64,000 nucleotides of DNA from Luteibacter sp. OK325 (GTDB taxonomy: Bacteria; Pseudomonadota; Gammaproteobacteria; Xanthomonadales; Rhodanobacteraceae). Location: positions 62,001-126,000 of the forward strand of contig NZ_QAOX01000011.1 of the NCBI RefSeq assembly GCF_003050935.1. Direction: 5' to 3'. The notes under the pieces were generated by a model that saw only the letters and a list, made by a program, of their open reading frames with translations, was not told the origin of the DNA and did no database searches. The stretch's first letter is position 1. Each line of letters opens with the position of its first letter. Positions 28,754-55,306 of this stretch are shown here, piece after piece. The translations under genes were made by a program, and so were the position numbers.

Positions 28754-29746
28754 TCAAACCTCGATCGGCTGCGGGTGCGGAAACCTCACGCTGGCGACGC
28801 GGTTAGCCCCGGGCAACGAGCGCAGTTCAAGCGGCCACTGGAACCGATCCGAGAGGCGGCGCGCAATCGCCAGGTCGAAGCCGTGGCGATCCACCGAGGC
28901 ATGTCGACGGCTGCCCTCCTCCGGCGTATCCACGGCAGGGTTGATCACACTCACGCTGCCCGGCATTACAGTCACCACGATCACGCCCTGGTCGGTCTGC
29001 TGTAGCGCGTGACGGATCAGCTGGCCACAGAGCACCGCGAACACGCGTGGTGATGCGTGCAGCGCAAAGCTGGCCGGCTCGTCGAGTATGAGTTCCACGG
29101 GTCGTCCGGCGATCAACTCCCGCGCATATTCGACTTCCTGGCGCAGGATCTTGTTGACGACGAAATCTTCTTCGGCCAGGCCCTGGTCGGATTCCCGCGA
29201 GAGGATGAGGAAGGCCTCAACCAGTGCTTCGAGCTCGCGCGTCGAACGGCGGATGCGCTCCAGCGACCGATGACCGAAGTCGGAGAGGTCCGTCTCATCG
29301 GCAAGCATGTCCGAGGACATCTTGATGACCGTGAGCGGGCTACGGAGTTCGTGGCTCGCATCACGGGTGAAATTGCGCTCGCGCTCGCCATACCCGTCGA
29401 TACGCGATGCCAGCCCATGCAGGCCACGAATCAGCGAGCCCACATCGTTGTTCGATTGCTTGCCACCTTCCGCGTCTAGCTGGGCCATGTCCGGTTTATC
29501 CGGGTCCCAGCCTTCGAGCAGACGTGCGAGTGCCGCGATCGGCACCCACTCGCGCGACACCGCCAGCCAGGCCAGCCCCGCCGACGAAAGCATGATGGCG
29601 ATCGCCGCTCCGATCGGCGCGACGTTCTTCGCCGCCATCAGCGAGGCGATGACGACGACCAGCGTCTGCAGAGCGAAGACGATGGCGATGCGGGCGCGGA
29701 ATGATCCGCGCCGACGCTTAGTCCCCTGCGATGTGCTGCCTTCCAT
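28754..29746 (-). CDS. Sensor histidine kinase with a diverged ATP-binding domain
   Basis: 330 residues. Two spans at about 19-38 and 46-64 flank a very short loop, so sensing may be within the membrane. HisKA carries His132 in 'DASHELRSPLTV'. The catalytic domain is unusual: the N-box reads 'CGQLIRHAL' (240-248), with Gln and His where Asn residues are usual, the G1 box DxGxG is absent ('VINPAVDTPEEG'), and only part of G2 remains ('HGFDLAIARRLSD'). Ordinary ATP binding may be lost. It is the partner of the OmpR-type regulator 26 bases upstream. Ligand unknown. Confidence 0.85.
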   Translation of the reverse strand: MEGSTSQGTKRRRGSFRARIAIVFALQTLVVVIASLMAAKNVAPIGAAIAIMLSSAGLAWLAVSREWVPIAALARLLEGWDPDKPDMAQLDAEGGKQSNNDVGSLIRGLHGLASRIDGYGERERNFTRDASHELRSPLTVIKMSSDMLADETDLSDFGHRSLERIRRSTRELEALVEAFLILSRESDQGLAEEDFVVNKILRQEVEYARELIAGRPVELILDEPASFALHASPRVFAVLCGQLIRHALQQTDQGVIVVTVMPGSVSVINPAVDTPEEGSRRHASVDRHGFDLAIARRLSDRFQWPLELRSLPGANRVASVRFPHPQPIEV

Positions 29747-41883: not shown

Positions 41884-44800
41884 TTATGGGTATCTCCCCA
41901 GCGCCATGCGCAGCGTCGCGGTGCTGTCAATGAGACTGCCCGAAAGCGGCGGAACCACTTCCAGGCCCACCCTCACCGACTTCTGGATGAGCGCCGGCGC
42001 CTGGAAAACCGCGACGATTCCATCGGCATAGGGCTGGAAATCCAGCGGCCGGGCGTACCCTTCGACGTGTAGCTTGAACGTCGGCGTGATCGTGCCGGCC
42101 ACCTGTGGCCCGAGCATCACGAAGACGTGATAGCGGCGGCTGGCTGCGAACTTGACGTCGAACAGCAGAAGGGTTCCGGACCGGCCTCGCTTATAGGTGT
42201 ACCTGTTGAATTTTCCCGCTGGAGTCACGGCGGCATATTGCTCGCCCAGGCCGGCGTAGGTCTTCAGCAGACCGAATGCGCCCGACCCCGCTTCATCGCC
42301 ATACAGGTTCAGATAACAAAGCGGCATACGGCCTGTAGGCTTGTCGATTCCAAAGCCCTCGATGTCGATCACTCGCGGTGGAGGGCTGATCGTGATGTCA
42401 GACTGGCCTTCGGTCCCGGTTCCCGTGCCCGCCTCAACCTTGTCGAGGCCCACTACGTTCACCACTGCGACGGGAAGGCGCATGAACTTGAAGCTCTCGC
42501 TCGCCAACGGGCGTTCGATAACGACAACGATCTTGAGATCCGTGGACGACACCCTAGGCTGGCCAAGTACCCATGAGTTGGGCAGGTTCAACGACAGGCC
42601 GTTGGCGAGATCGGACTCGAGCACCGGACGCTTCGTAGCCAGTTCGATCGACGTCGTAAATTGCTTGCTGCTGTCGATGCCGAGGATCGACACGCTTACG
42701 GTCTGGCCAGCGCGCATGAATGGCCATGGTGGCACGACGACCGTCAGCGAGCTCGTCGCCAGTGTCTTCGCATCGATGTATGGATTGCCCTCGCCGGTCG
42801 CCGCCTGTTGTAACTGCTTGATACGGGGTCTGGGCAGGCGTGGATCGTTCTTGTCGTAAGCCACCAGGGTCAGCACAAGATCGTCCGATGTCTTGGATTG
42901 CCCGTCACGAGTGACCACGTACCGCGCGGCGAAGCTGCCGCCCAGCGAGGGAATGAGGTCCTCGGTCGTCACGTTGCCAGACTTCGGATGACCCTCCATC
43001 GGCGACACCCGCCGCCATGTATCGCCCGCCGCCCTGACCTCGAAGGCGATGGTGTCGGTCTGTCGCACATCCGCATTGCCGGGCACCGTCAGCACGATGC
43101 CATCCTTGGCTTTCTCCACATCGAGGGTGCCGGCACTGGCGGCAGCACTGAGTAAGGATGGCAGGATACCGATGGTCACCGGAGCGACACGAAGACGGAA
43201 CGGCCTGCTCGGCTGTGGACCAATAACGTTACCGACACGCTTCACGACGTAGTTCGCCGTGACGACGGCACCCGCCGACGCGACCACGCGTGACCGGGGT
43301 ATGCCGAAGGCGAGCGAACCCTCTGCCTTGTCCACCGTATACGGACCGAAGGCCGTACCCTGCCAGTCGAGAGTGACCTGGTCCCCGGGCTGAAACCGTC
43401 CATTCAACGGAACCCACACCGGCAACGAGTCGCCCGTCATGTCATCGAGCGCGAGCTGTTCGTCAGCTTTCAAGTCAGAGATGACAAGCGAGGGCCATTC
43501 CGGCGCAACGACGAACGGACGAAAGGAAAGCTTGCGCTCGCGCGAGCGAACGCTCGCTCCATCGGAATCGCTGAACACCACGAGAAGGGAGAGCTCGCCA
43601 TCGGCGAAGTTTACAAACCGCTCCCGCGCAAGCACCCACACCAGCTTGCCGTTATCGTCGGTCGAGAGGAGGGACGCATTTTGCTCGAAGCCCTGGTTCG
43701 AATTCGGCGAGCGAACCTTGAGCGACGCCGTCAGATCCCGACGGGGCCAGATTGAAGATACCTCGACCGAAACGCTGAGATCATCGGCAAAGCTGTTCAG
43801 GTCGAGAACGTCGCCATCCTCGGGAGCCCTCTCGACGATCGGCGCGGGAATGGTCAGCGCGCTGCCCACCACCGACCTCGTGCGCGTCGCCGAATTGAAA
43901 TCAAGCCCCCTGCGCTTGACCACGTAGGAGAAAAAGATACTCCCTCCCGCGAGGTAGCCGAGCCATGCGATGGGAACATTGAAGACGTAACGGGCCGACG
44001 GAGGCTGATTGGGATCCACGGCCGCCTTCGGGTCATCGTTGAGAGGAAGCGCAGGCGCGGCAACTTGCACGTACTGCAAAGGTACGATGCGCAGTTTCGT
44101 ACTCGTCGTGCCGGCCAGGCTGACGACAATCTGGTCACCCGACTCGACATCGATATATTCGACGATGAGTGGGGTCGAGTCCGGAGAGTCCGTCACCGAT
44201 GCCATTTTCTTCGCGAGATCGACATCGACATTGCCTTTGGCGTTGATCGCGTACGCGAGGCTAGGTAGCGGCAACAAGGGGGCAAAAACCACGGTGACTT
44301 CTACCGCCGGTGCGTTACCCGAGGTATTACCGACGCGGTCGCGGATGGCATAAGTCACTGACACCAGACCTTGCGGTGCACCGTCGATGACCGACCACGG
44401 AACGGTCACCTTCACTGGCTGGCCGACCGTGATCGCCGATGCATCAACCTCGATATTCGTCTCACCCCAGTAGATCGTGAGCTGCGCACCCTTCTCCATG
44501 TTCTTCCATGCAGGAATCGTCAGTACGAGATCCTTCCCCTTCGCCAGTCCACTCGTACCCTCGACAGGCTTGAGGTTTTCGTTGATGTAAGGTGTCTGTG
44601 CGTCCGTGTCCTCGCCGCCGGGGCGAGTAAACTTCGCATCGAGTACAAGCGCTGGCGAACGACGCATGCTCTCCAGCGAAGTGGCTCCGTATTTCTCCAG
44701 GACGTAGAAGACTTCGATCATCCTGCCGGGATGATCCCGACCTGGATGACGCTCGAGGACCGATACCGGCACGAGGAACTCCAGGCTGTACGTCACTGCA

Positions 44801-44994
44801 CCGACATAGCCTTTGTCGACGAGTTCACCGTCCCAATAAAGTTGGACATAGTCGCCCCACTTGAATGTGTCTGTCTCCACTGTCACCGAAAAGCCCCCCG
44901 ATTCGGCGCAGAGGTGCGAGCGATTGACCACAAGGGGTGTTTCCGGCTCGAGCGCCGGGCGCGGATAAGCGTCATCGATTTCCCAACTGTCCAT
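41884..44994 (-). CDS. Large modular beta-sandwich protein of unknown function
   Basis: 1,036 residues from the ATG at 44992-44994, chosen because AAGGAG lies 8 bases upstream; no signal peptide, lipobox or membrane span is visible. About seven diverged modules of 100-140 residues can be traced (roughly 22-120, 131-238, 245-385, 386-493, 495-605, 608-712, 718-848). Each begins with a strand such as 'LTIPAWKNMEKGAQLTIYWG', 'VWVPLNGRFQPGDQVTLDWQ' or 'VVVPPWPFMRAGQTVSVSIL' and ends near 'VSVTYAIRDRVGN', 'FFSYVVKRRGLDFNS' or 'AARYVVTRDGQSKTS', an Ig-like pattern. Residues 872-1036 form a separate beta-rich domain. G+C of two sampled lines (43441: 33/60; 44161: 35/60) is below that of neighbours. 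Could be a secreted adhesin or effector exported without a Sec signal; function unknown. Confidence 0.8.
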   Translation of the reverse strand: MDSWEIDDAYPRPALEPETPLVVNRSHLCAESGGFSVTVETDTFKWGDYVQLYWDGELVDKGYVGAVTYSLEFLVPVSVLERHPGRDHPGRMIEVFYVLEKYGATSLESMRRSPALVLDAKFTRPGGEDTDAQTPYINENLKPVEGTSGLAKGKDLVLTIPAWKNMEKGAQLTIYWGETNIEVDASAITVGQPVKVTVPWSVIDGAPQGLVSVTYAIRDRVGNTSGNAPAVEVTVVFAPLLPLPSLAYAINAKGNVDVDLAKKMASVTDSPDSTPLIVEYIDVESGDQIVVSLAGTTSTKLRIVPLQYVQVAAPALPLNDDPKAAVDPNQPPSARYVFNVPIAWLGYLAGGSIFFSYVVKRRGLDFNSATRTRSVVGSALTIPAPIVERAPEDGDVLDLNSFADDLSVSVEVSSIWPRRDLTASLKVRSPNSNQGFEQNASLLSTDDNGKLVWVLARERFVNFADGELSLLVVFSDSDGASVRSRERKLSFRPFVVAPEWPSLVISDLKADEQLALDDMTGDSLPVWVPLNGRFQPGDQVTLDWQGTAFGPYTVDKAEGSLAFGIPRSRVVASAGAVVTANYVVKRVGNVIGPQPSRPFRLRVAPVTIGILPSLLSAAASAGTLDVEKAKDGIVLTVPGNADVRQTDTIAFEVRAAGDTWRRVSPMEGHPKSGNVTTEDLIPSLGGSFAARYVVTRDGQSKTSDDLVLTLVAYDKNDPRLPRPRIKQLQQAATGEGNPYIDAKTLATSSLTVVVPPWPFMRAGQTVSVSILGIDSSKQFTTSIELATKRPVLESDLANGLSLNLPNSWVLGQPRVSSTDLKIVVVIERPLASESFKFMRLPVAVVNVVGLDKVEAGTGTGTEGQSDITISPPPRVIDIEGFGIDKPTGRMPLCYLNLYGDEAGSGAFGLLKTYAGLGEQYAAVTPAGKFNRYTYKRGRSGTLLLFDVKFAASRRYHVFVMLGPQVAGTITPTFKLHVEGYARPLDFQPYADGIVAVFQAPALIQKSVRVGLEVVPPLSGSLIDSTATLRMALGRYP

Positions 44995-45115
44995 TGTTCG
45001 ATCTCCTTCCATGGTGAAGACGAACCGCCGGCATGCGCGGCGGCTGGCAACAGCATGCACCGCAACGGCGTGCGTCACTATCTCTCGAAGGTCGTAGGCG
45101 CAACCTGCGCCAATC

Positions 45116-45164: not shown

Positions 45165-46556
45165 TCAGTGCGCTCCAGCAGGAAGAACCAGGGTGACGCG
45201 TAACCCACCGCCCTCGCGGTTGGCCAGTGCGATGCGCCCACCGTGGGCCTCGGAAATCTCGCGCGCCAGGGCCAGCCCAAGACCTGTACCCGAGCGTTTG
45301 GTCGAGTAGAACGGCAATAAGGCCTGGGCCAGCACGGTCTCGCTCATGCCGGGGCCACGGTCGGATACTTCGATCAACGTTTCGCGGCCAACAGCGTGCA
45401 CCGCAACCGTGACCTCATTCGATTCGCCACCTGCCTCGTGGGCATTCTTGATCAGGTTGATCAGGACCTGCTCCACCTGGGTCGTGTCGAACCAGCCCGG
45501 GTGTTCGGGCGGTGGCGCTACGATGCGGAATGAAGCGTGCAGTCCGAGCGCGTCAAGGAACGGCCCCCACGGCACCGCCCTTGCCTGTGGACTAGGCAGC
45601 TTCGCGAAGCTCGCATAGCCGGAAATGAACGTATGCAGGTGCTTCGCGCGATCGCCGATCGAGGCGAAGACGCCGGGCAGCCGCGCGAGGTCGCCACGCC
45701 GGGCGAGCTCCGCGCCGGAGTGCGACAAGGACGAAATAGGCGCCAGCGAATTGTTCAGCTCATGGCTGATGACGCGGATCACACGCTTCCACGTATGCAC
45801 TTCCTGCCGGGACAGCTCGCGCGTCATGCGTCGGTATAGCTGCAGCCGATGCGGACGCCCCTGCAGGCGGAACCCTCGCTGGGACAGGTGGAAGGTTTCC
45901 TCACTGCCTTCCATCTCGACCGAGAACAAGGCGTCCTCACCGGTCGCTGCCGCGTCACGCAGGCTTTCGGGCATGCTTGCGAGCACGGTGGAGAAATCCA
46001 GACCCGCCAGCGAACGCCCTTCGTTGAACAGATGCCGCGCCGCGATGTTCGCGTAGGTGACGTTATCCGCCGCATCGGTGAGCACGAGCGCCACCGGCGT
46101 GTTCTGCACCACGGTATCGAGCAGTAGTTCACGCTGGGCCAGATGCTGGCGCTGGTCGCGCAGGGTCTGCCCTAGCGCGTTGTGCATGCGAATCAGGTCG
46201 CCGAGCTCATCGCGTCGCGTGGTGCCGATCGACATGCTGAAGTCGCCGTCGCGATAGCTCGCCACGGCGCTTTCCAGCGCGCGTACCAGACGCCGCAGGG
46301 GCTCCACCAGCGCATGGGCGACCCACACCGAAAGCGGTACCAGCACGAGGAGGCAGATCATCAGCGCCGTTCCCCCGTCGAAGAATTCGACAGGGACGGC
46401 ATCGGGGAGCTTGCCGCCCTTGGCGGGCGCTTCGCGCATCCATGCCACCAGCTGCGGAAACGGCCAGATCGACACGCCGGCGAACACCAGCGCGCCGACG
46501 ATCGCCGAACCGGCAACGACCAGGGTCATCCGTCCTTCAAGCGAGAGCGTCTTCAT
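45165..46556 (-). CDS. NtrY-like sensor histidine kinase (HAMP-PAS-HisKA-HATPase)
   Basis: 463 residues. Two spans at about 10-35 and 62-85 with a short periplasmic loop, HAMP at about 85-140, PAS at about 145-230 ('LLDTVVQNTPVALVLTDAAD'), HisKA with the phospho-His in 'RVISHELNNSLAP', and an intact HATPase ('QVLINLIKNAHEAG', 'VSDRGPGMSE', 'STKRSGTGLGLALAREI'). The 'HELNNSLAP' H-box is typical of NtrY/NtrB-like kinases that pair with sigma-54 activators, and such an activator lies 18 bases upstream. It closes the exporter operon and probably responds to the exporter's cargo or to envelope stress; the signal is unknown. Confidence 0.92.
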   Translation of the reverse strand: MKTLSLEGRMTLVVAGSAIVGALVFAGVSIWPFPQLVAWMREAPAKGGKLPDAVPVEFFDGGTALMICLLVLVPLSVWVAHALVEPLRRLVRALESAVASYRDGDFSMSIGTTRRDELGDLIRMHNALGQTLRDQRQHLAQRELLLDTVVQNTPVALVLTDAADNVTYANIAARHLFNEGRSLAGLDFSTVLASMPESLRDAAATGEDALFSVEMEGSEETFHLSQRGFRLQGRPHRLQLYRRMTRELSRQEVHTWKRVIRVISHELNNSLAPISSLSHSGAELARRGDLARLPGVFASIGDRAKHLHTFISGYASFAKLPSPQARAVPWGPFLDALGLHASFRIVAPPPEHPGWFDTTQVEQVLINLIKNAHEAGGESNEVTVAVHAVGRETLIEVSDRGPGMSETVLAQALLPFYSTKRSGTGLGLALAREISEAHGGRIALANREGGGLRVTLVLPAGAH

Positions 46557-46574: not shown

Positions 46575-47909
<1,335 letters not shown>

Positions 47910-47999: not shown

Positions 48000-49223
48000 C
48001 TAGCCACGGGTGGCGACCACCGGGGGAACCGAGGCGGCACGGAGCGCCGGTGCGAGGACGGCCACCTGACCGAGCAGCCAGAGCAGCACCGCGCCAATGG
48101 GCAGGTAGACGAGGGGCAGCCGGGGCAATTCATACTCGCGCATCAGGAACAGATTGATGCCGTAAGCCAGGGCCATGCCGATCACGATTCCCATGCTGGC
48201 GAGCAGGAAGTTCTCGGTCTGGAAATAACGCAGTACATCCACCCGGCGCGCGCCCAGGGCGCGGCGCACGCCGATCTGGCGGCGGCGTTGGCCAACCCAG
48301 AAACTGGCCAGGCCGACGATGCCCAGCGCCGTAACGATCAGCAGGATCACGCAGACCGCTACCAGCAAGCCGGCCATGGCGCGGTCACCGGCGAAACGAT
48401 CGTCACGGATGGCCTTGTAGGTCTCCTTCTTGACGATGACGCGTCGCGGGTCGATCTTCTTCAATGTCTCCACGGCCAGCGCCAGTACCCGGTCGGCCTG
48501 CCCTGGCTGGCTGCGAATGATGAAGGAGCCCCCGACCGACGTACTCTCGCGCCAGGGCATCAGCGTCGTTAGCTCGACATCGGAGCGATCCACGCCGCCT
48601 GCAGCGGCGAGCCGGTCCACCACGCCGACCACACGCATCTCCGTGTCGCTGCTACCGGCCCAGACCGAACGGCCGAGCGCCGATGCGTCGCCGAAGAGGT
48701 GCCGGGCCAGGCCTTGCGTAATCACGATGACCGCCGCCGGCTTGGCCTTGCCTGCCACAAGGTCATCGAGCCAGACGTACTCGGTTGGCTCAAAAAAGCG
48801 TCCGGCCACGAGATGCGTGCCAAGCGTCTCGCCGACGCTCTCGCCGTAGAAATTCTTCACGTCCACGGTCGACGTTCGCTGGTTGGGCGCAAGGTTGAGG
48901 TTGCTGCCCCAGCTGGTGTCGCCAAAAGGCACGCTATTGCTGATCGTGGCGGCCATGACGCCCGGGATTGCCCTCAGCGCGGCGAGATCAGCCTCGGTTC
49001 GGGCGTGGTCGTCACCATGCCTGCCGATGTCGGAAGCGACGATGTGCACCACGTTGGCCTCGTCGATACCGCTGGGAGTATCCGCGATCGCCAGGCGGTC
49101 ACCCACGAGAAAGACAGCGTTGCAGACGATCGCACAGGTGAGTGCGATCTCGAGCACCACCAGGCTGGCGGTGAGCCGGTGCCTGCGCAAGGCGGAAAAG
49201 ATCGGACCAATTTCCATCAGCAT
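48000..49223 (-). CDS. FtsX-type ABC permease, B' copy
   Basis: 407 residues; the second codon pair 'MLMEIGP' allows a start at 49223 or 49217. One N-terminal span ('TASLVVLEIALTCAIVCNAV'), a periplasmic MacB_PCD-like domain at about 40-275, then three spans with the FtsX core 'SFWVGQRRRQIGVRRALGAR'. It is a paralogue of the permease at 50566-51792: both start 'EIGPIFSALRRH'/'QIKPILSALRRH' and share the FtsX core almost word for word. It probably pairs with the A' permease immediately upstream to form the membrane part of a MacB-like exporter. Confidence 0.88.
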   Translation of the reverse strand: MLMEIGPIFSALRRHRLTASLVVLEIALTCAIVCNAVFLVGDRLAIADTPSGIDEANVVHIVASDIGRHGDDHARTEADLAALRAIPGVMAATISNSVPFGDTSWGSNLNLAPNQRTSTVDVKNFYGESVGETLGTHLVAGRFFEPTEYVWLDDLVAGKAKPAAVIVITQGLARHLFGDASALGRSVWAGSSDTEMRVVGVVDRLAAAGGVDRSDVELTTLMPWRESTSVGGSFIIRSQPGQADRVLALAVETLKKIDPRRVIVKKETYKAIRDDRFAGDRAMAGLLVAVCVILLIVTALGIVGLASFWVGQRRRQIGVRRALGARRVDVLRYFQTENFLLASMGIVIGMALAYGINLFLMREYELPRLPLVYLPIGAVLLWLLGQVAVLAPALRAASVPPVVATRG

Positions 49224-49224
49224 G

Positions 49225-50544
49225 TCATTGGCTCTTCAGTTGCAGCGCGGGGGCCACACGGCAGGCACGCCACGCGGGCAGCACACCGGCGATGGCCGTC
49301 GCGCCGATCGCGACCACGAAGGTCAGGCAGAGCATCGTCAGGTCAAGGTGCGCCAGTTTCGCGTAGGACACCGGTTGCAACCTGACCAGCCACAGGCCCA
49401 TCCAGGACAGCAGGAGCCCGGCGATGCCACCGACAAGGCCGACCATCCCGGCTTCGGTCAGCAACTGCGCGAACACGCTGACGCGCGACGCGCCCAGCGC
49501 GCGCCGAACGCCGACCTCGCCCGAGCGACGCATGAACTTCGCCAGCATCAGGCCCACGGTATTGATGAGGCAGACGAGGAAAAAAGCGAGCGCCAGCCAG
49601 ACCTGCAGACGCACATCGCTTGGCACGACCTTCTCGTTGTCCAGCCAGCCCATGAGGTCGAGCATGCGCGTGTTGGCGGGACGCTCGAAGCGTCCGATGG
49701 CTTTCTGCTCTGCGGCGTAATGGGAGAGGAAATCACGATAGGCCGCTACCTTTTCCGGCCTGTCGAGCTCCACCCAGAACTGTAGCCACGCACAGTCGGA
49801 GCTTTCCAGGGTGCTCTCGTCGCCCGAGCCCTTCCCCCAGCACTGGATGCCGCCGGCCCGCGCGAGCAGGAAGTCGCGAGCCGTCGAGAGCGGGATAAAA
49901 ACACCTTCCTCTCCGGAGTACGTTCCCACGTTCAGGTCGAAGAAATGCGGGGCCGGACGCCAGGGCTCGAGGACGCCGATCACACGCAGATCGCGTCCGT
50001 CGACGTGGATCACGCGACCGGTACTGTCCTCGCCGTGGAAGAGTTTGTCGTTGAGATCGCTACCGATCACGACAACGCGCGAACGGCTATCGTCCTCCGC
50101 AGAGGTCCATCCCCTGCCGTAGCGGAACGGCGTGCCGAACATCGGAAAGAAGTCGGCGGTGGTGTAACGCGACGACGAGAGGAAGGGATCCATGCGCTGT
50201 CCCGCCGCCTGCACGGCCACCTGGCCACCGACCATCAAGGCCTGATGATCCGCGCGACGCGAGTGCAGCAGGTTCATGCCGTCGACCCAGGTCAGTTGCC
50301 TGGGAAATCTCTGGCTCGGGGACGCCTGGTCCGGCGCGTAGTCTTTCATGTCCCGCGGATCCATTTGAGGATAAAAGATCGACGCGCTGCGCCCCGGCAG
50401 AGGATCACCCGACAGCACATGCAGCACGGTAAGCGTGGTCATGCACGCCCCGATGCCGAGGGCGATCGCGAGAATCATCAGTGCCGTCAGTGCCCTGCTC
50501 CGCTTCAGGCTGCGGAGCGCGAGTTCCATGTAATAACCGAACAT
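49225..50544 (-). CDS. FtsX-type ABC permease, A' copy
   Basis: 439 residues. N-terminal 'MELALRSLKRSRALTALMIL' span, a large periplasmic domain (about 45-310), then spans with 'TVGLMLAKFMRRSGEVGVRR' and C-terminal 'LPAWRACRVAPALQLKSQ'. It is a paralogue of the permease at 51797-53104, sharing 'AKFMRR', 'GVRRALGASR' and the 'LQLKS' ending, but is clearly diverged in the periplasmic domain. The next gene starts one base after its stop. Confidence 0.88.
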   Translation of the reverse strand: MFGYYMELALRSLKRSRALTALMILAIALGIGACMTTLTVLHVLSGDPLPGRSASIFYPQMDPRDMKDYAPDQASPSQRFPRQLTWVDGMNLLHSRRADHQALMVGGQVAVQAAGQRMDPFLSSSRYTTADFFPMFGTPFRYGRGWTSAEDDSRSRVVVIGSDLNDKLFHGEDSTGRVIHVDGRDLRVIGVLEPWRPAPHFFDLNVGTYSGEEGVFIPLSTARDFLLARAGGIQCWGKGSGDESTLESSDCAWLQFWVELDRPEKVAAYRDFLSHYAAEQKAIGRFERPANTRMLDLMGWLDNEKVVPSDVRLQVWLALAFFLVCLINTVGLMLAKFMRRSGEVGVRRALGASRVSVFAQLLTEAGMVGLVGGIAGLLLSWMGLWLVRLQPVSYAKLAHLDLTMLCLTFVVAIGATAIAGVLPAWRACRVAPALQLKSQ

Positions 50545-50565: not shown

Positions 50566-51792
50566 TCAGACGCTGCGCGTGGCCTCGACCGGCGACACCC
50601 GCGATGCGCGCAGCGCAGGTGCGAATACCGCGGCCTGGCCGAGGGCGAGCAAGGCCACCACCCCGATGCCGACATAGGTGAGCGAAAGACGTTTCATCTC
50701 GAAGTGCGTGAACATCCACTGGCTGAGACCCACCGCCAGCACCACGCCGACAACCACGCCGACCAGGGCGATGAGGAAGTTTTCGGTCATGAAATAGCTG
50801 AGGATATCGCTGCGCCGTGCGCCAAGCGCACGGCGCACGCCGATCTGCTTGCGGCGCTGGCCGACCCAGAAGCTGGACAGGCCGACGATGCCCGCCGCCG
50901 TGATGGCCAGCAGCACGCCACAGACCACGCTCATGAGGATCGCCATGCCGCGATCGGCCTCATACGCACGGGCTCGAACATCCTCGAACCGGCGAACACC
51001 GAGCTTCTCCGGAAGCACGCGCATGCGGTTGACCGCGTACAAAGCCTGCGGGATAGCCTTGAAGACCGCATCTTCCTGCCCCGGCTGGGTACGCACGAGG
51101 AAGTTCTGGAAGCTGCTATCGAAGATCACCGGCATGATGACGACGTAGTCGCCGTCCACGTAGTTGTTTTCAATCCACGGCGAGGTGAGCTTCTCGACGA
51201 TACCGATAATCGTCGAGGGCTTTCCCTTGGCGAGGTAAACCACCTTACCCAGCGCGTTGCCGTCCGGAAAGACCTTGTCGGCCAGCGCCTTGGTGACGAT
51301 GATCTGCGGCGAACCGGGTTGCTGCTCTCGCTTGACGGTCTGCGTTTCGCCCGCGTTGAAGTTGCGACCGGCGATCAGTCGGACGCCGAGCGTCTTCAGC
51401 GCATGGTCGTCGCCGAAGTACAGCGCCGTGGAAATGCCCTCCTTCTTCGAATCCGGGTCCGTCTGCACGCCGGTGGACCAGCCACCCTGGCGCAGCGGAT
51501 ATGCGTTGGTGACATACGCATCGACCACGCCGGGGAGAGACCGCAACGTCTGCAGATCGGTTTTCATCAGGGGGGCGAAGGTCTCCGGGGCGCCGACGTA
51601 GTCGTTACCGATGGCGATCAGATTCGTCTCGTCCAGGCCCGTCGTGCGGTTCACCTTGTCGACCCGCTCATGCACGATGAACAGGGCGTTGCAAACGATG
51701 GCGAGGGTGAGCGCGATCTGCAGCGCGATGAGGATCGTGCCTGCCTTGTGCCGGCGCAACGCGGAAAGAATGGGCTTGATCTGCATGATCAT
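50566..51792 (-). CDS. FtsX-type ABC permease, B copy
   Basis: 408 residues as listed; GAGG eight bases before the second ATG (51786, 'MQIKPILSALRRH') favours that start. N-terminal span 'GTILIALQIALTLAIVCNAL', periplasmic MacB_PCD-like domain, and the C-terminal FtsX core 'SFWVGQRRKQIGVRRALGAR'. It follows the A permease by 4 bases and should form a heteromeric permease pair with it. The ATPase is encoded separately upstream. Confidence 0.88.
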   Translation of the reverse strand: MIMQIKPILSALRRHKAGTILIALQIALTLAIVCNALFIVHERVDKVNRTTGLDETNLIAIGNDYVGAPETFAPLMKTDLQTLRSLPGVVDAYVTNAYPLRQGGWSTGVQTDPDSKKEGISTALYFGDDHALKTLGVRLIAGRNFNAGETQTVKREQQPGSPQIIVTKALADKVFPDGNALGKVVYLAKGKPSTIIGIVEKLTSPWIENNYVDGDYVVIMPVIFDSSFQNFLVRTQPGQEDAVFKAIPQALYAVNRMRVLPEKLGVRRFEDVRARAYEADRGMAILMSVVCGVLLAITAAGIVGLSSFWVGQRRKQIGVRRALGARRSDILSYFMTENFLIALVGVVVGVVLAVGLSQWMFTHFEMKRLSLTYVGIGVVALLALGQAAVFAPALRASRVSPVEATRSV

Positions 51793-51796
51793 GTCC

Positions 51797-53104
51797 TCAG
51801 TTGGATTTCAGCTGCCAGGCCGGCTGGACCTGTGCGGCGCGCCATGTGGGATAGAAGGCTGCGATCAGCGAGGCCACGATCGCGACAACCAGGGTGATCA
51901 GGATCAACACCGGATCGAGCTTTGCCAAGCGGGCTACCGGTTCGGGGAAAACCAGTCCGACGCCAAGGATGCCAACCCCGGTAAGGATGAGTCCAAGTAC
52001 ACCACCAGCGACGCCGATCGTTCCCGCCTCAATCAGGAACTGCGCGTAGATGTCCTTGCGCGACGCGCCCAGTGCCCGGCGCACCCCGATCTCCGGCGCA
52101 CGGCGCATGAACTTGGCCAATAGCAGGCCGACGGTGTTGACGAGACAGATAACCAGGAAGCCCAGCGAAACGATCAGGGAAACCTGGGACTCCTTCGGCA
52201 CTACGTGCTGTACGTCCAGCCAGGTCGGCACGTCGCGCACCTTGATGTTCGGCGCCCAGCTAAAGCGGCCCGCGCGTTGCTGGTCGGCGGCATAGCCCTC
52301 GATGTACTGACGGTACGTTTCCGCTTCCGCCTTCGTAGGCAGTTCGCTCCACAGCGACAGCCAGATGCATTCCGAGCGCAGGTAGTTGTCCCAGCCTTCG
52401 CCCGGCTCTTCGGTACAGCTGTTATTGCCGGCATTCGGCAGCTTCAGGTCGACGGCGCGCGTGAATGGCACGTACACCTGGGCGCCATCGTCAAAACCGC
52501 CCGTATTAGGCACGTCGAAGAACAAGGGCTGCGGTGCCCAGTCCTGGATCACGCCGGTAATGCGATACAGGTGGCCGTCGATGTTCATCTGCTTGCCGAC
52601 GCTCTGGCCGCCGTCGAACAACTTGTCGTTGAGGGACTTGGCGATGACCACGACGCTGGCATGTTTCTCGTCGTCCTCGAGCGTCCAGCCAGTCCCCTGG
52701 ATGAACGGCACGTCGAACATCGGGAAGAAGTCAGCGCCCGTGGCGTATGCACCCTCGCGTACCGGCAGGCGGGACGGGTTGTCGGGAATCACCGAAACGC
52801 CGATGGGGTACGTGACCGCTTGCCGTTTCGCCTTATGCGCTCGCAGCAGCGCCGTCGCGTCTTTATAGGAAAGCGCCGGCGGCGGCTCGCCCTTCTCGAG
52901 CTTGTCGGGACCCCGGTTGTCCAGCTGGGTGTTGTACAGCTGGCTCGACTTCTGCGGTATCGGATCTTGCGACGTCGCGCGGAACACCGAGTACGTCGTC
53001 ATCGAGGCGGCGACGCCAAAACCGATGGCCATCACCATCAATGCGGTGAGGACCGGATTGCGGCGGAGGCTGCGCAGGCCGAGCTGGAGGTAGTAACTGA
53101 ACAT
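51797..53104 (-). CDS. FtsX-type ABC permease, A copy
   Basis: 435 residues: N-terminal span ('LGLRSLRRNPVLTALMVMAI'), periplasmic domain about 40-305 containing several cysteines ('NNSCTEEPGEGWDNYLRSEC'), then three spans with 'TVGLLLAKFMRRAPEIGVRR' and the end 'FYPTWRAAQVQPAWQLKSN'. Together with the B copy it has the layout of a split MacB-type permease. It lies 29 bases after the ATPase gene. Confidence 0.88.
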   Translation of the reverse strand: MFSYYLQLGLRSLRRNPVLTALMVMAIGFGVAASMTTYSVFRATSQDPIPQKSSQLYNTQLDNRGPDKLEKGEPPPALSYKDATALLRAHKAKRQAVTYPIGVSVIPDNPSRLPVREGAYATGADFFPMFDVPFIQGTGWTLEDDEKHASVVVIAKSLNDKLFDGGQSVGKQMNIDGHLYRITGVIQDWAPQPLFFDVPNTGGFDDGAQVYVPFTRAVDLKLPNAGNNSCTEEPGEGWDNYLRSECIWLSLWSELPTKAEAETYRQYIEGYAADQQRAGRFSWAPNIKVRDVPTWLDVQHVVPKESQVSLIVSLGFLVICLVNTVGLLLAKFMRRAPEIGVRRALGASRKDIYAQFLIEAGTIGVAGGVLGLILTGVGILGVGLVFPEPVARLAKLDPVLILITLVVAIVASLIAAFYPTWRAAQVQPAWQLKSN

Positions 53105-53133: not shown

Positions 53134-53844
53134 TCAGGAAAGGGCGACGTGCGGCTGCGTGTGGAAACGCGGCTCTTCGGAGAGGTCGACGACCTGGCCG
53201 TCGATCACGTGCACGTTGCGCTGCGCGCGCGCGGCGAGTTCGGGATCGTGGGTGACCATGACGATGGTGGCGCCTTCGCGATGGATCTCCTCGAGTAGTT
53301 CCATCACGCCGCGGGCCATCTGCGTGTCGAGGTTACCGGTCGGCTCATCGGCCAGAAGCAGGCGCGGCGAACCGGCGAGTGCGCGGGCGATGGCGACGCG
53401 CTGCTGCTGACCACCGGAGAGCTCAGCCGGATAGTGCTTGGCACGCGAAGCGAGACCCACACGCTCCAGCGCATCCATGATCCGCTGCTTGCGCTCGGCC
53501 GCCTTCATGCCGCGATAGCGCAGCGGCACTTCCACGTTGTCGAACACGTTGAGGTCGGGAATCAGGTTGAAGGCCTGGAAAATGAAGCCGATCTTCTCGT
53601 TGCGGATTCGCGAACGGGCGTTGTCGTCGAGCTGGCTGACTTCGACGCCGTCCAGGTGGTACTGGCCGCCGGTAAAGGTTTCGAGCAGGCCGGCGATCGT
53701 CAGGAATGTGGTCTTGCCCGAACCCGACGGTCCGGTCACGGCGACGAACTCGCCTTCCTTCACGTCGATGTTGAAGTCGCGCAGGGCGTAGGTCTCGACG
53801 ACTTCCGTGCGGTAGACCTTGGCGAGATGGGTCATCTTGAGCAT
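53134..53844 (-). CDS. ABC transporter ATPase, MacB/LolD type
   Basis: 236 residues. Walker A GPSGSGKT at 38-45, Q-loop 'GFIFQAFNLIPDLNVFDNVE', signature 'LSGGQQQRVAIARALAG', Walker B 'LLLADEPTGNLD' and switch His in 'VMVTHDPELA'. The 'DEPTGNLD' form is typical of mechanotransmission ABC systems (MacB, LolD, FtsE). It is the only ATPase gene of this operon and must therefore energise both permease pairs, unless one pair is inactive. Confidence 0.95.
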   Translation of the reverse strand: MLKMTHLAKVYRTEVVETYALRDFNIDVKEGEFVAVTGPSGSGKTTFLTIAGLLETFTGGQYHLDGVEVSQLDDNARSRIRNEKIGFIFQAFNLIPDLNVFDNVEVPLRYRGMKAAERKQRIMDALERVGLASRAKHYPAELSGGQQQRVAIARALAGSPRLLLADEPTGNLDTQMARGVMELLEEIHREGATIVMVTHDPELAARAQRNVHVIDGQVVDLSEEPRFHTQPHVALS

Positions 53845-53879: not shown

Positions 53880-55151
53880 TCAGCGGCTGATGGCGACGTG
53901 TTTCGCGTCACCGAAGGTGTCGGCACCGGAGATGACGATCTTGTCGCCCTCTTTCAGGCCGCTCAGGATTTCGACCTTGTCGATACTGCTCGCACCGACC
54001 CGGATGTCGCGACGATCGGCCATGCCGTCGGCGACGACGAAGGCATAACGGCCGGCGCTTTCGTCGACGAACGAACCGCGCTGCACGGTGAGCACGTTGT
54101 CGCGTTTGTCGAGCAGTACGCGTACGGAGAGGCGCTGGCTCTGGCGAAGCTGGCTGGGCGTGGCGCCGTCGAAGCGCAGGCGCGCAGCGACTTCTCCGTT
54201 GACCACTTCGGGCGAGATCGCACTTACCTTGCCGCTCCACACCTTGCCGTTGCCACTGATCTCACCGGGCATGCCGATGGCGAGATCACGCGCGAAGCTC
54301 TCCGGCACCTTCATTTCCACCTGCAGCGCGGACAGATCGATCACGCTGACCAGCTGTGCGTCCTTGGCGACCGTAGCGCGTTCGGCAATGAACGCCTGGC
54401 CCACCTGGCCGTCGACCGGCGACTTCACGTTGAGTTCTTCCACCTGGCGCTCGAGGTCCTGCACGAGCAGCACCTGGCGGTCGTAGGCAAGCTTCTTCGC
54501 CTGGATGTCGAAGGTCAGGCTGCCATTGTCCGTGGCGAGGTCGGACTGAGCGTGTTTCACCGTTACGTTGGCCTTGTCCAGCGTGGACTTTGCCGTGTCG
54601 ACCGCCGCGGCGGGAACCGCCCCCTTGCCGTAAGCGCCCTCGTAGCGCTTGAGATCGCGCTGGCCGGCAGTCTGGTCGATCACCGCGTTGTCGTAGGCCT
54701 TCTGCAGCTCCGAACGCTTCTTCGTGGCGTCCACCTGTGAACGCAGGAAATCCACCTTCGCGGCATCCGCGGCCGAGCGTTCCTGGGCCAGCTTGGCGGC
54801 GAGGTCAGGGCTGGTAATCACAGCAAGCACCTGATTCTTCTTCACCACGTCGCCCGGATGCACGGTCAGCACCACCGCACCGGCGGAGGTGGCGTACAAA
54901 GTGGGGCTTACCGCGGCGACGACCTTGCCTTCGGCGGCGATGTCGCGGACGAAGGGTCCGCGCGTCACCGTGGCAAAGCTGAGGCGGGAGGCACTCACCG
55001 AGCTGTCGGCGGAGAACATCGTGGCGACATGGGGGGCCGCGAAGGCAAGCGCGGCGACTGCGGCAATGCCGGCGCCGATGTAGATCAGCTTGCGTTTACG
55101 GTTGGAACCGACTTCGACGAGGCGGTCCGTGGCGGAGGTATCGCGGATCAT
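53880..55151 (-). CDS. HlyD/MacA-type periplasmic adaptor protein
   Basis: 423 residues: one N-terminal span at about 20-45 ('LIYIGAGIAAVAALAFAAPH'), a lipoyl half-motif ('LYATSAGAVVLTVHPGDVVK'), a long helical hairpin at about 115-245 ('AQERSAADAAKVDFLRSQVD', 'RQVLLVQDLERQVEELNVKS'), the second lipoyl half 'SPVDGQVGQAFI', then beta-barrel and membrane-proximal domains ending 'SGLKEGDKIVISGADTFG'. It bridges the inner-membrane ABC complex to an outer-membrane channel; no TolC-like gene is in the window. AGGGAA precedes the ATG. A sigma-54 promoter lies 34-50 bases upstream. Confidence 0.93.
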   Translation of the reverse strand: MIRDTSATDRLVEVGSNRKRKLIYIGAGIAAVAALAFAAPHVATMFSADSSVSASRLSFATVTRGPFVRDIAAEGKVVAAVSPTLYATSAGAVVLTVHPGDVVKKNQVLAVITSPDLAAKLAQERSAADAAKVDFLRSQVDATKKRSELQKAYDNAVIDQTAGQRDLKRYEGAYGKGAVPAAAVDTAKSTLDKANVTVKHAQSDLATDNGSLTFDIQAKKLAYDRQVLLVQDLERQVEELNVKSPVDGQVGQAFIAERATVAKDAQLVSVIDLSALQVEMKVPESFARDLAIGMPGEISGNGKVWSGKVSAISPEVVNGEVAARLRFDGATPSQLRQSQRLSVRVLLDKRDNVLTVQRGSFVDESAGRYAFVVADGMADRRDIRVGASSIDKVEILSGLKEGDKIVISGADTFGDAKHVAISR

Positions 55152-55184: not shown

Positions 55185-55201
55185 AGCAAGCGGCGTGCCA
55201 A
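55185..55201 (-). promoter_or_regulatory. Sigma-54 promoter of the exporter operon
   Basis: On the minus strand the sequence is TTGGCACGCCGCTTGCT, a full match to the consensus YTGGCACG-N4-TTGCW with correct spacing of the -24 GG and -12 GC. The predicted start lies near 55173-55175, giving a leader of about 23 bases with the AGGGAA ribosome site of the adaptor gene. Confidence 0.88.
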
Positions 55202-55231
55202 GCCATTACATTGTATTAAAACAGTGAGTTA

Positions 55232-55256
55232 CGGCGCTCCTTGGAGAGCAGCGCCG
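55232..55256 (-). terminator. Stem-loop between the hemP unit and the exporter promoter
   Basis: CGGCGCT (55232-55238) and AGCGCCG (55250-55256) form a 7-base stem around an 11-base loop that itself contains CTCC-TT-GGAG. It lies 51 bases after the stop of the gene at 55307 and may reduce readthrough of the hemP transcript into the exporter operon. Confidence 0.4.
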
Positions 55257-55282
55257 TGTCCGCGGACAAAGTGTCCGGACAC
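55257..55282. promoter_or_regulatory. Two palindromes, probable NtrC-type activator sites
   Basis: TGTCCGCGGACA (55257-55268) and GTGTCCGGACAC (55271-55282) are both perfect 12-base palindromes sharing TGTCC/GGACA arms, with a further GGACA half-site at 55293-55297. They lie about 56-80 bases upstream of the sigma-54 promoter, where dimers of a Fis-type HTH activator bind. The NtrC-type regulator at 46575-47909 is the likely binder. Confidence 0.75.
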
Positions 55283-55306
55283 TGCGCCGGTCGGACAGGC
55301 GGTGGC

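Follow-up and report, generated by a model that had tools for sequence, protein, structure and literature searches.

The window analysed here, a 64,000-nucleotide stretch of Luteibacter sp. OK325 (C11:62001-126000 of a 4.94-Mb genome assembled into 21 contigs), contains a minus-strand operon that encodes a MacB-like exporter, an NtrC-type response regulator and a histidine kinase, with a predicted sigma-54 promoter and palindromic activator sites in front. Our results suggest, with moderate confidence, that this operon is the hub of a dispersed regulon run by its own regulator, in which the exporter is combined with a family of small peptides as cargo. The regulatory part of this reading is highly probable on the sequence comparisons given below, and the assignment of the peptides as exporter cargo is about evenly balanced. 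The initial annotation had described a self-contained module of about 10 kb; this frame is too small, as further sites of the same kind stand before other genes.

A sigma-54 promoter was defined as TGGCAC-N5-TTGC with invariant GG and GC and with an activator site upstream, and this arrangement is found before the adaptor gene that opens the operon. The promoter TGGCACGCCGCTTGC and the palindromes TGTCCGCGGACA and GTGTCCGGACAC lie exactly where the initial annotation had placed them (Table 1). The pattern TGTCC-N0-3-GGACA occurs three times in the window, twice at the promoter and once at 29308, against 0.33 expected, and none of 100 shuffles reached three. In the whole genome it is present at 19 places, three of which are exact copies of TGTCCGCGGACA, and all three exact copies precede a sigma-54 promoter. 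A promoter search 45-75 bp behind the 19 places recovered two of the three exact copies and none of the 16 others, the third copy escaping solely through its gap of 44 bp. Outside the window, one exact copy (C11:59143) precedes a second A/B pair of permease genes, which ends about 190 bases before the window start and has no ATPase gene beside it, and the other (C1:623085) precedes two small open reading frames (ORFs). Palindromes arising by chance are ruled out by these genome counts together with the reversed-pattern controls and the class-wide sample described below. The remaining palindrome of the window, TGTCCGAGGACA at 29308-29319, has one mismatch to the upstream activator site (UAS) and no promoter pattern 45-75 bp behind it; the same form precedes a peptide at locus L313.

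Conservation of the palindromes before orthologous operons had been set beforehand as a test, and it was observed in Rhodanobacteraceae, Burkholderiales and Solimonas. At least 80 loci encoding the regulator were fetched, picked by the regulator alone, and the orthologue count comprises the window and the 27 loci that include the adaptor gene and its upstream, leaving out the other 53. This set includes Luteibacter, Pinirhizobacter, a Lysobacterales metagenome-assembled genome, many Burkholderiales (Roseateles, Paucibacter, Rhizobacter and others) and Solimonas. Among the loci listed, TGTCCGCGGACA is exact in 27 of the 28 adaptor upstreams, and the -24/-12 pattern precedes 22 of the 28 adaptor genes, window included, the other six being one base off by eye; in Solimonas the palindrome and the promoter each show one mismatch. 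The core of the second palindrome, TGTCCGGACA, is exact in 7 of these 28, six being from Luteibacter with the window counted, which rules out the two palindromes as equal activator sites. Therefore, of the two sites proposed for the activator, TGTCCGCGGACA is general and GTGTCCGGACAC is nearly restricted to Luteibacter. TGTCCG half-sites, usually several in a row, form a variable array upstream of the conserved site (by eye).

More distant adaptor upstreams were taken from 12 of the 38 regulator-bearing family genomes lacking the exact pattern (discussed below) and from five genomes of other families of the order; two further genomes yielded no adaptor. All 17 carry two to seven TGTCCG/CGGACA half-sites (mean 3.8 against 0.17 in shuffled sequence) and a -24/-12 match of at least 8/10, and eight display an everted GGACA-C-TGTCC, in one case beside an exact UAS. 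Since every distant upstream carries half-sites and eight are everted, the half-site is retained while its arrangement changes. In the more distant genera (L262, L263, L267, L268, L270, L272, L275 and L278), the everted form often takes the place of TGTCC-GC-GGACA, although the orthologues read are almost identical in their recognition helix.

The combination of UAS and promoter was detected in 182 of 233 Rhodanobacteraceae genomes, with no match for the reversed-pattern control, and in none of 367 genomes of the class outside this family. The class sample consisted of 369 genomes drawn evenly, in which the two matches were the window's genome and another of the same family; it leaves room for outside carriers, as Burkholderiales with the site exist. 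The regulator was found in 210 of the 233 family genomes (E up to 1e-140), of which 172 have the exact pattern (comparison by hand). In Luteibacter, 22 of 23 genomes have two to eight UAS-plus-promoter matches each, mostly before defined gene classes.

To describe these classes, the downstream DNA was read for 122 matches, 64 of the 79 in the 23 Luteibacter genomes and a further 58 in the family's other genera, the latter being best-ranked or hand-picked loci and not a random sample; two sites were entered twice (L134/L178 and L136/L183). Class names were given by Pfam for one or two members per class and by tblastn for the remainder. On this basis, 115 of the 122 matches fall into a gene class: 51 precede peptides (three then followed by a beta-lactamase-fold gene), 29 the adaptor operon, 22 permease pairs and six a TolC-type channel, while serine carboxypeptidase S10, an unnamed protein and NTF2/DUF4440 account for two each and an alpha/beta hydrolase for one. 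The seven sites without a class include three with a looser promoter pattern only (L173, L227, L232), two on the strand opposite a better site (L174_0, L194_0), one before a transposase-like ORF (L133, by eye) and one before a short ORF (L215). Among the 22 satellite permease pairs, the missing neighbour ATPase is established for the pair of the window's genome only. The TolC gene of this genome is preceded by a UAS with one mismatch and a -24/-12 match, and is a probable rather than a certain member of the regulon because the two lie about 105 bp apart, outside the usual range. The UAS-promoter spacing at 119 sites is 79-83 bp in 98, 69-73 bp in 11 and 58-60 bp in nine, with a single site at 65 bp. 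Beta-lactamase-fold hydrolases behind the switch were observed in three g24 genomes (L190, L192, L241) and in two of Paucibacter (L244, L248), the latter two having an extra site before such a gene (Pfam on one of the two).

The peptides encoded behind the most numerous class of sites are 27-73 amino acids (aa) long and start with M-[KNQT]-x-E-x3-L, followed by one hydrophobic helix; the 73-aa forms have a five-residue insert in this N-terminal motif. Their tails are absent (27-28 aa), short (42-52 aa) or contain two cysteines, spaced C-x8-C in all 33 seed peptides of at least 60 aa and C-x9-C in three 73-aa forms (by eye). Searches of four peptides against NCBIfam and of two against Pfam gave no meaningful match, the best (E = 0.014) being to a pyrophosphatase model and far under its cut-off. 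These peptides are coding sequence, because the ratio of non-synonymous to synonymous change (pN/pS) in frame (0.53, 0.54, 0.19 and 0.48 in four groups) is lower than in the other frames (0.81-3.65). The leader is more constrained than the tail, with values of 0.39 versus 0.62 in the 43-aa set (n=20) and 0.15 versus 0.76 and 0.73 in the 64-aa set (n=9).

As the peptide profile was built from switch sites, the reverse, peptide-first search is a fair test of their association. In the 23 Luteibacter genomes it retrieved 83 matches, up to 10 within one genome, and 80 of them are behind the switch. Coordinates compared by eye place 49 of them directly behind one of the 79 Luteibacter sites mentioned above. 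Among the remaining 34, a UAS with exactly one mismatch is present in 31, at a distance of 69-83 bp from -24/-12 elements that match the consensus at 9 or 10 of 10 positions, and 29 of these UAS read CGTCCGCGGACA (a count without shuffled control); the three matches without a UAS are the weakest of the 83 (E 1.9e-5, 0.06 and 0.09). This search adds peptides at C10:135896 and C15:29351 in the window's genome. At L185 2170-2499 (-), a peptide found by the profile only follows CGTCCGCGGACA and a -24/-12 match; the site through which the locus was retrieved lies on the other strand. One peptide locus is located just upstream of a trmL-like gene (named by eye) in Luteibacter and genus g22 (L116 4300-4600, L147, L150, L158 and others), and its promoter may also read into that gene. 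In the Luteibacter genome G003, seven dispersed and nearly identical promoter-plus-peptide cassettes of about 0.6 kb (L307, L309-L312, L315, L322) have flanks resembling repetitive extragenic palindromes (by eye), and such a cassette seems to spread within the genome.

The regulator encoded by the operon exceeds the Pfam cut-offs for Response_reg (70.9 bits), Sigma54_activat (222.2 bits) and HTH_8 (40.2 bits). In activators of the NtrC type, a GAFTGA-type loop contacts sigma-54. The window's regulator lacks the exact GAFTGA and has GAYTGA, with F replaced by Y, together with a P-loop (by eye); in the 101 regulators readable by script, from 110 loci (some being one genome entered twice, from two collections), the loop is GAYTGA in 90, GAFTGA in 10 and GAFTGS in one. 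Its domains and loop place the window's regulator among the NtrC-type sigma-54 activators. All 101 have the recognition helix L-G-[LM]-S-R-Q-A-L-Y-R-R-[MI]. The adjacent kinase is predicted from hydropathy, by eye, to have transmembrane segments at about residues 12-30 and 66-84 that enclose an outside loop of about 35 aa. Kinases of the BceS type, which sense within the membrane, have an outside loop of less than about 25 aa and signal via a transporter. The window's genome has one rpoN locus.

From binding sites upstream of their promoters, NtrC-type activators reach sigma-54 polymerase through DNA loops, in many cases with the help of integration host factor (IHF). From the features described above, we infer that the neighbouring kinase would phosphorylate the regulator, which would then bind TGTCCGCGGACA plus the upstream half-sites, meet sigma-54 RNA polymerase by DNA looping and open the promoter, IHF perhaps helping at the trmL-linked peptide promoter. 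The regulator would turn on its own operon and, in trans, the extra permease pairs, the TolC-type channel, the apparently secreted hydrolases and peptidases and the one-helix peptides. The latter would insert or go into the inner membrane or periplasm so that their variable tails face outwards, and they would be removed by the MacB-like pump or exported by it through TolC. The initial annotation had left the cargo of the exporter unnamed; the one-helix peptides under the same switch are now the obvious candidate.

Several results weigh against this reading. The -24/-12 match by itself is weak evidence and within chance: the window has two exact matches, of which TGGCACGCCGCTTGC is one, and the nine matches with at most one mismatch (5.07 expected) were reached in 7 of 100 shuffles. 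Among the 210 regulator-bearing family genomes, 38 show no exact match to the pattern, and genera g20 and g21 account for 24 of these; the 12 looked at present other half-site arrangements. Conversely, 10 of the 23 family genomes in which no regulator was found (three of the 23 being deduced) still match the switch. Of the eight such genomes listed, seven are in 110-510 contigs, and in one (G044) the adaptor lies behind the site, so assembly gaps are the likely reason for the missing regulator in fragmented genomes; the eighth, G057, is a single contig whose sole match precedes a transposase-like ORF. The matches in 15 of 16 Burkholderiales and Solimonas genomes (promoter set as GGCAC-N6-TGC) do not provide an independent test, because the same operons had already shown the site. 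Similarly, seven of the 31 one-mismatch sites of the peptide-first search are copies of the one G003 cassette and hence not independent. No peptide was found inside the exporter-operon loci searched (40,135 ORFs), and the 27-28 aa peptides without a tail are as compatible with a membrane partner as with a cargo. A helical period in the spacing was considered and set aside, because the resultant length of 0.71 at 10.5 bp is exceeded at 11.5 bp (0.74) and the test is thus not sharp. IHF as a general helper was also rejected: its consensus occurs in 24 of the 122 spacers, against 0.26 in single-base shuffles, but copies of a single peptide promoter in Luteibacter make up 21 of these, so that the evidence holds for that promoter only; the window's own spacer has no IHF consensus.

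The peptides may also be small membrane partners that bind and tune the permeases or the kinase, in the manner of AcrZ and MgrB, one-helix proteins that tune other proteins, which we regard as possible, if on the unlikely side. A partner role is favoured by the tail-less forms, which consist of the helix alone; the N-terminal helix is also the most constrained part of the peptides, and the short periplasmic loop of the kinase makes a membrane ligand plausible. The number of paralogues per genome, with their variable tails, would nevertheless be odd for a subunit, and the C-x8-C found in every longer seed peptide and the presence of TolC and a peptidase in the regulon speak against it. Export as cargo, in turn, is favoured because the leader is constrained and the tails freer, the paralogues are many, and TolC and hydrolases belong to the same regulon. 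A Gram-negative peptide secretion system of a new kind, in which a sigma-54 two-component switch would turn on a tripartite MacB-like pump with one core ATPase and interchangeable permease pairs, together with duplicating peptides that share a leader, vary in their tails (some having a C-x8-C loop) and are exported as toxins or signals, is a tentative extension to which we give somewhat less than an even chance. The system could also be a detoxification module, whose pump answers envelope stress or foreign antimicrobial peptides, the small peptides being alarm or immunity factors; the short sensor loop recalls transporter-sensing kinases. According to PMC5985334, enteric MacAB is under PhoPQ, a system that responds to antimicrobial peptides. 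Detoxification is unlikely here, as the duplicated promoter-peptide cassette, TolC and the hydrolases fit production and export better.

Regarding the switch, the regulator has at least 36 matches in the window's genome, and the switch persists in the 10 genomes without a found orthologue, as expected if another sigma-54 activator bound the UAS. This is very improbable, given that loci chosen solely by their regulator, including some beyond the order, have the site before the operon, that the invariant half-site goes with a nearly invariant recognition helix among the orthologues, and that the regulator gene sits in the very operon carrying the site. Even less probable is that the palindromes serve only an autoregulated exporter operon with an unrelated cargo, such as a drug or secondary metabolite. 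Conservation of an autoregulatory site is in agreement with this, and 14 of the 15 matching non-family genomes have one site each (with the GGCAC-N6-TGC promoter pattern). Nevertheless, the three exact UAS copies before promoters in the window's genome and the several matches before defined gene classes in nearly all Luteibacter genomes oppose it, and it does not predict the result of the peptide-first search. The dispersed regulon, with the peptides as candidate cargo, is the reading that we retain.

The layout of the operon is given in Table 1. Its genes are separated by 1-90 bases, and the coordinates of the regulator and kinase genes in the initial annotation were correct. All four permeases exceed the cut-off for both the MacB_PCD periplasmic domain and the FtsX C-terminal domain, as in the MacB superfamily (type VII ATP-binding cassette (ABC) transporters), and the closest solved structures to the first type A permease are MacB chains. 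A MacB-style fusion of ATPase and permease is not found, the ATPase and the four permeases being separate genes. The closest named relatives of the regulator, among the matches listed, are from Luteibacter species (98-87% protein identity).

Table 1. Predicted promoter, activator sites and operon genes in the window (UAS, upstream activator site; HTH, helix-turn-helix; TM, transmembrane).
Feature	Position	Strand	Basis
Predicted sigma-54 promoter, -24/-12 elements TGGCACGCCGCTTGC	55186..55200	-	10/10 consensus match
Predicted activator site (UAS) TGTCCGCGGACA, conserved palindrome	55257..55268	.	Genome counts and orthologue comparison
Second palindrome GTGTCCGGACAC, part of upstream half-site array	55271..55282	.	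Core TGTCCGGACA
Further CGGACA half-site	55292..55297	.	Just beyond the stretch covered by the initial annotation
Periplasmic adaptor (RND_mfp/MacA-like, HlyD_D23)	53880..55151	-	Profile matches
ABC ATPase (DarD/LolD/MacB-like), sole ATPase gene of the operon	53134..53844	-	Profile matches
FtsX/MacB_PCD permease, type A (ADOP model N half)	51797..53104	-	Profile matches
FtsX/MacB_PCD permease, type B (ADOP model C half)	50566..51792	-	Profile matches
FtsX/MacB_PCD permease, type A, second pair	49225..50544	-	Profile matches
FtsX/MacB_PCD permease, type B, second pair	48000..49223	-	Profile matches
NtrC-type response regulator: receiver, AAA+ with GAYTGA loop, Fis-type HTH	46575..47909	-	Pfam and by eye
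Histidine kinase: two TM segments, HAMP, H-box at H265 (by eye), HATPase_c	45165..46556	-	

Beyond the kinase, an inverted repeat GGCACGC-N4-GCGTGCC (by eye) precedes the next ORF, and an ORF of 1064 aa (41884-45078, minus strand) separates the kinase from a Band_7 gene. This ORF has no match in Pfam, NCBIfam, PADLOC or PHROGs, a lower GC content (0.607 versus 0.645) and no tblastn relative in the fetched regulator loci, where the kinase often directly adjoins the Band_7 gene; it is probably a recent insertion. In Rhodanobacter sp. C06 (L087, L089), the operon region is present twice on one contig, in opposite orientation and with identical matches, representing either a recent inverted duplication or an assembly artefact.

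If the peptide secretion system outlined above is correct, orphan ABC permease pairs would be substrate-specific modules served by an ATPase in trans; the switch ties at least one pair without a neighbouring ATPase to the core exporter. The UAS with its sigma-54 promoter offers a signature that makes the targets of one regulator readable across 182 genomes of a single family. In addition, the analysis brings out a family of tiny-peptide genes whose role as cargo, signal or pump partner becomes directly testable. The literature searched, from which most subscription papers were absent, contained nothing on point about the motif, the regulon or the peptides, and the one paper found with the 12-mer concerns a human gene.

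Among the closest known systems is MacAB-TolC of Escherichia coli, which exports STII, a small disulphide peptide, from the periplasm (PMC5985334). In the same source, MacB-type pumps are described as taking their substrates from the periplasm, the known peptide substrates being commonly small and disulphide-bonded. A further composite pump, the Aat system, serves a small secreted protein (PMC7943197). The Luteibacter system shares with MacAB-TolC the FtsX/MacB_PCD permease domain, the adaptor and the TolC-type channel. In contrast, its ATPase and permeases are encoded by separate genes, two A/B pairs share one ATPase gene, further pairs are found elsewhere, and regulation is through a sigma-54 two-component system. 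YknXYZ of Bacillus, which PMC5985334 links to protection from the sporulation delaying peptide (42 aa, one disulphide), similarly ties an adaptor and a MacB-like permease to a small peptide, although it is Gram-positive, has no outer-membrane channel, and differs in regulation and peptide family.

Other resemblances are at the level of single components. Permeases of types A and B correspond to the N and C halves of the ADOP model (TIGR03434), and the satellite pair of the window's genome is ATPase-less like ADOP, yet the Luteibacter halves are separate genes, co-regulated with the core ATPase operon, and score 157-192 bits against a cut-off of 622.3. The best NCBIfam model for the ATPase is DarD of the darobactin exporter DarBCD, and DarC matches the adaptor, with scores that lie below the cut-offs (256.7 versus 375 for DarD, 59.7 versus 450 for DarC). 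Likewise, the best model for the regulator is PEP_resp_reg (TIGR02915) of the PrsK/PrsR (PEP-CTERM) system, also a sigma-54 response regulator, at 332.3 bits and under the cut-off of 502.6, so that the regulator does not belong to that family. As in BceRS-BceAB, an FtsX-type exporter adjoins a kinase with a short outside loop; unlike it, the Luteibacter system has a sigma-54 regulator and a tripartite pump, and sensing through the transporter would be a candidate mode here. For BceABS, bacitracin sensing is given in PMC5985334. Each part of the system is of a known kind, while the combination, the site and the peptide family were absent from the literature searched and, for the peptides tested, from Pfam and NCBIfam.
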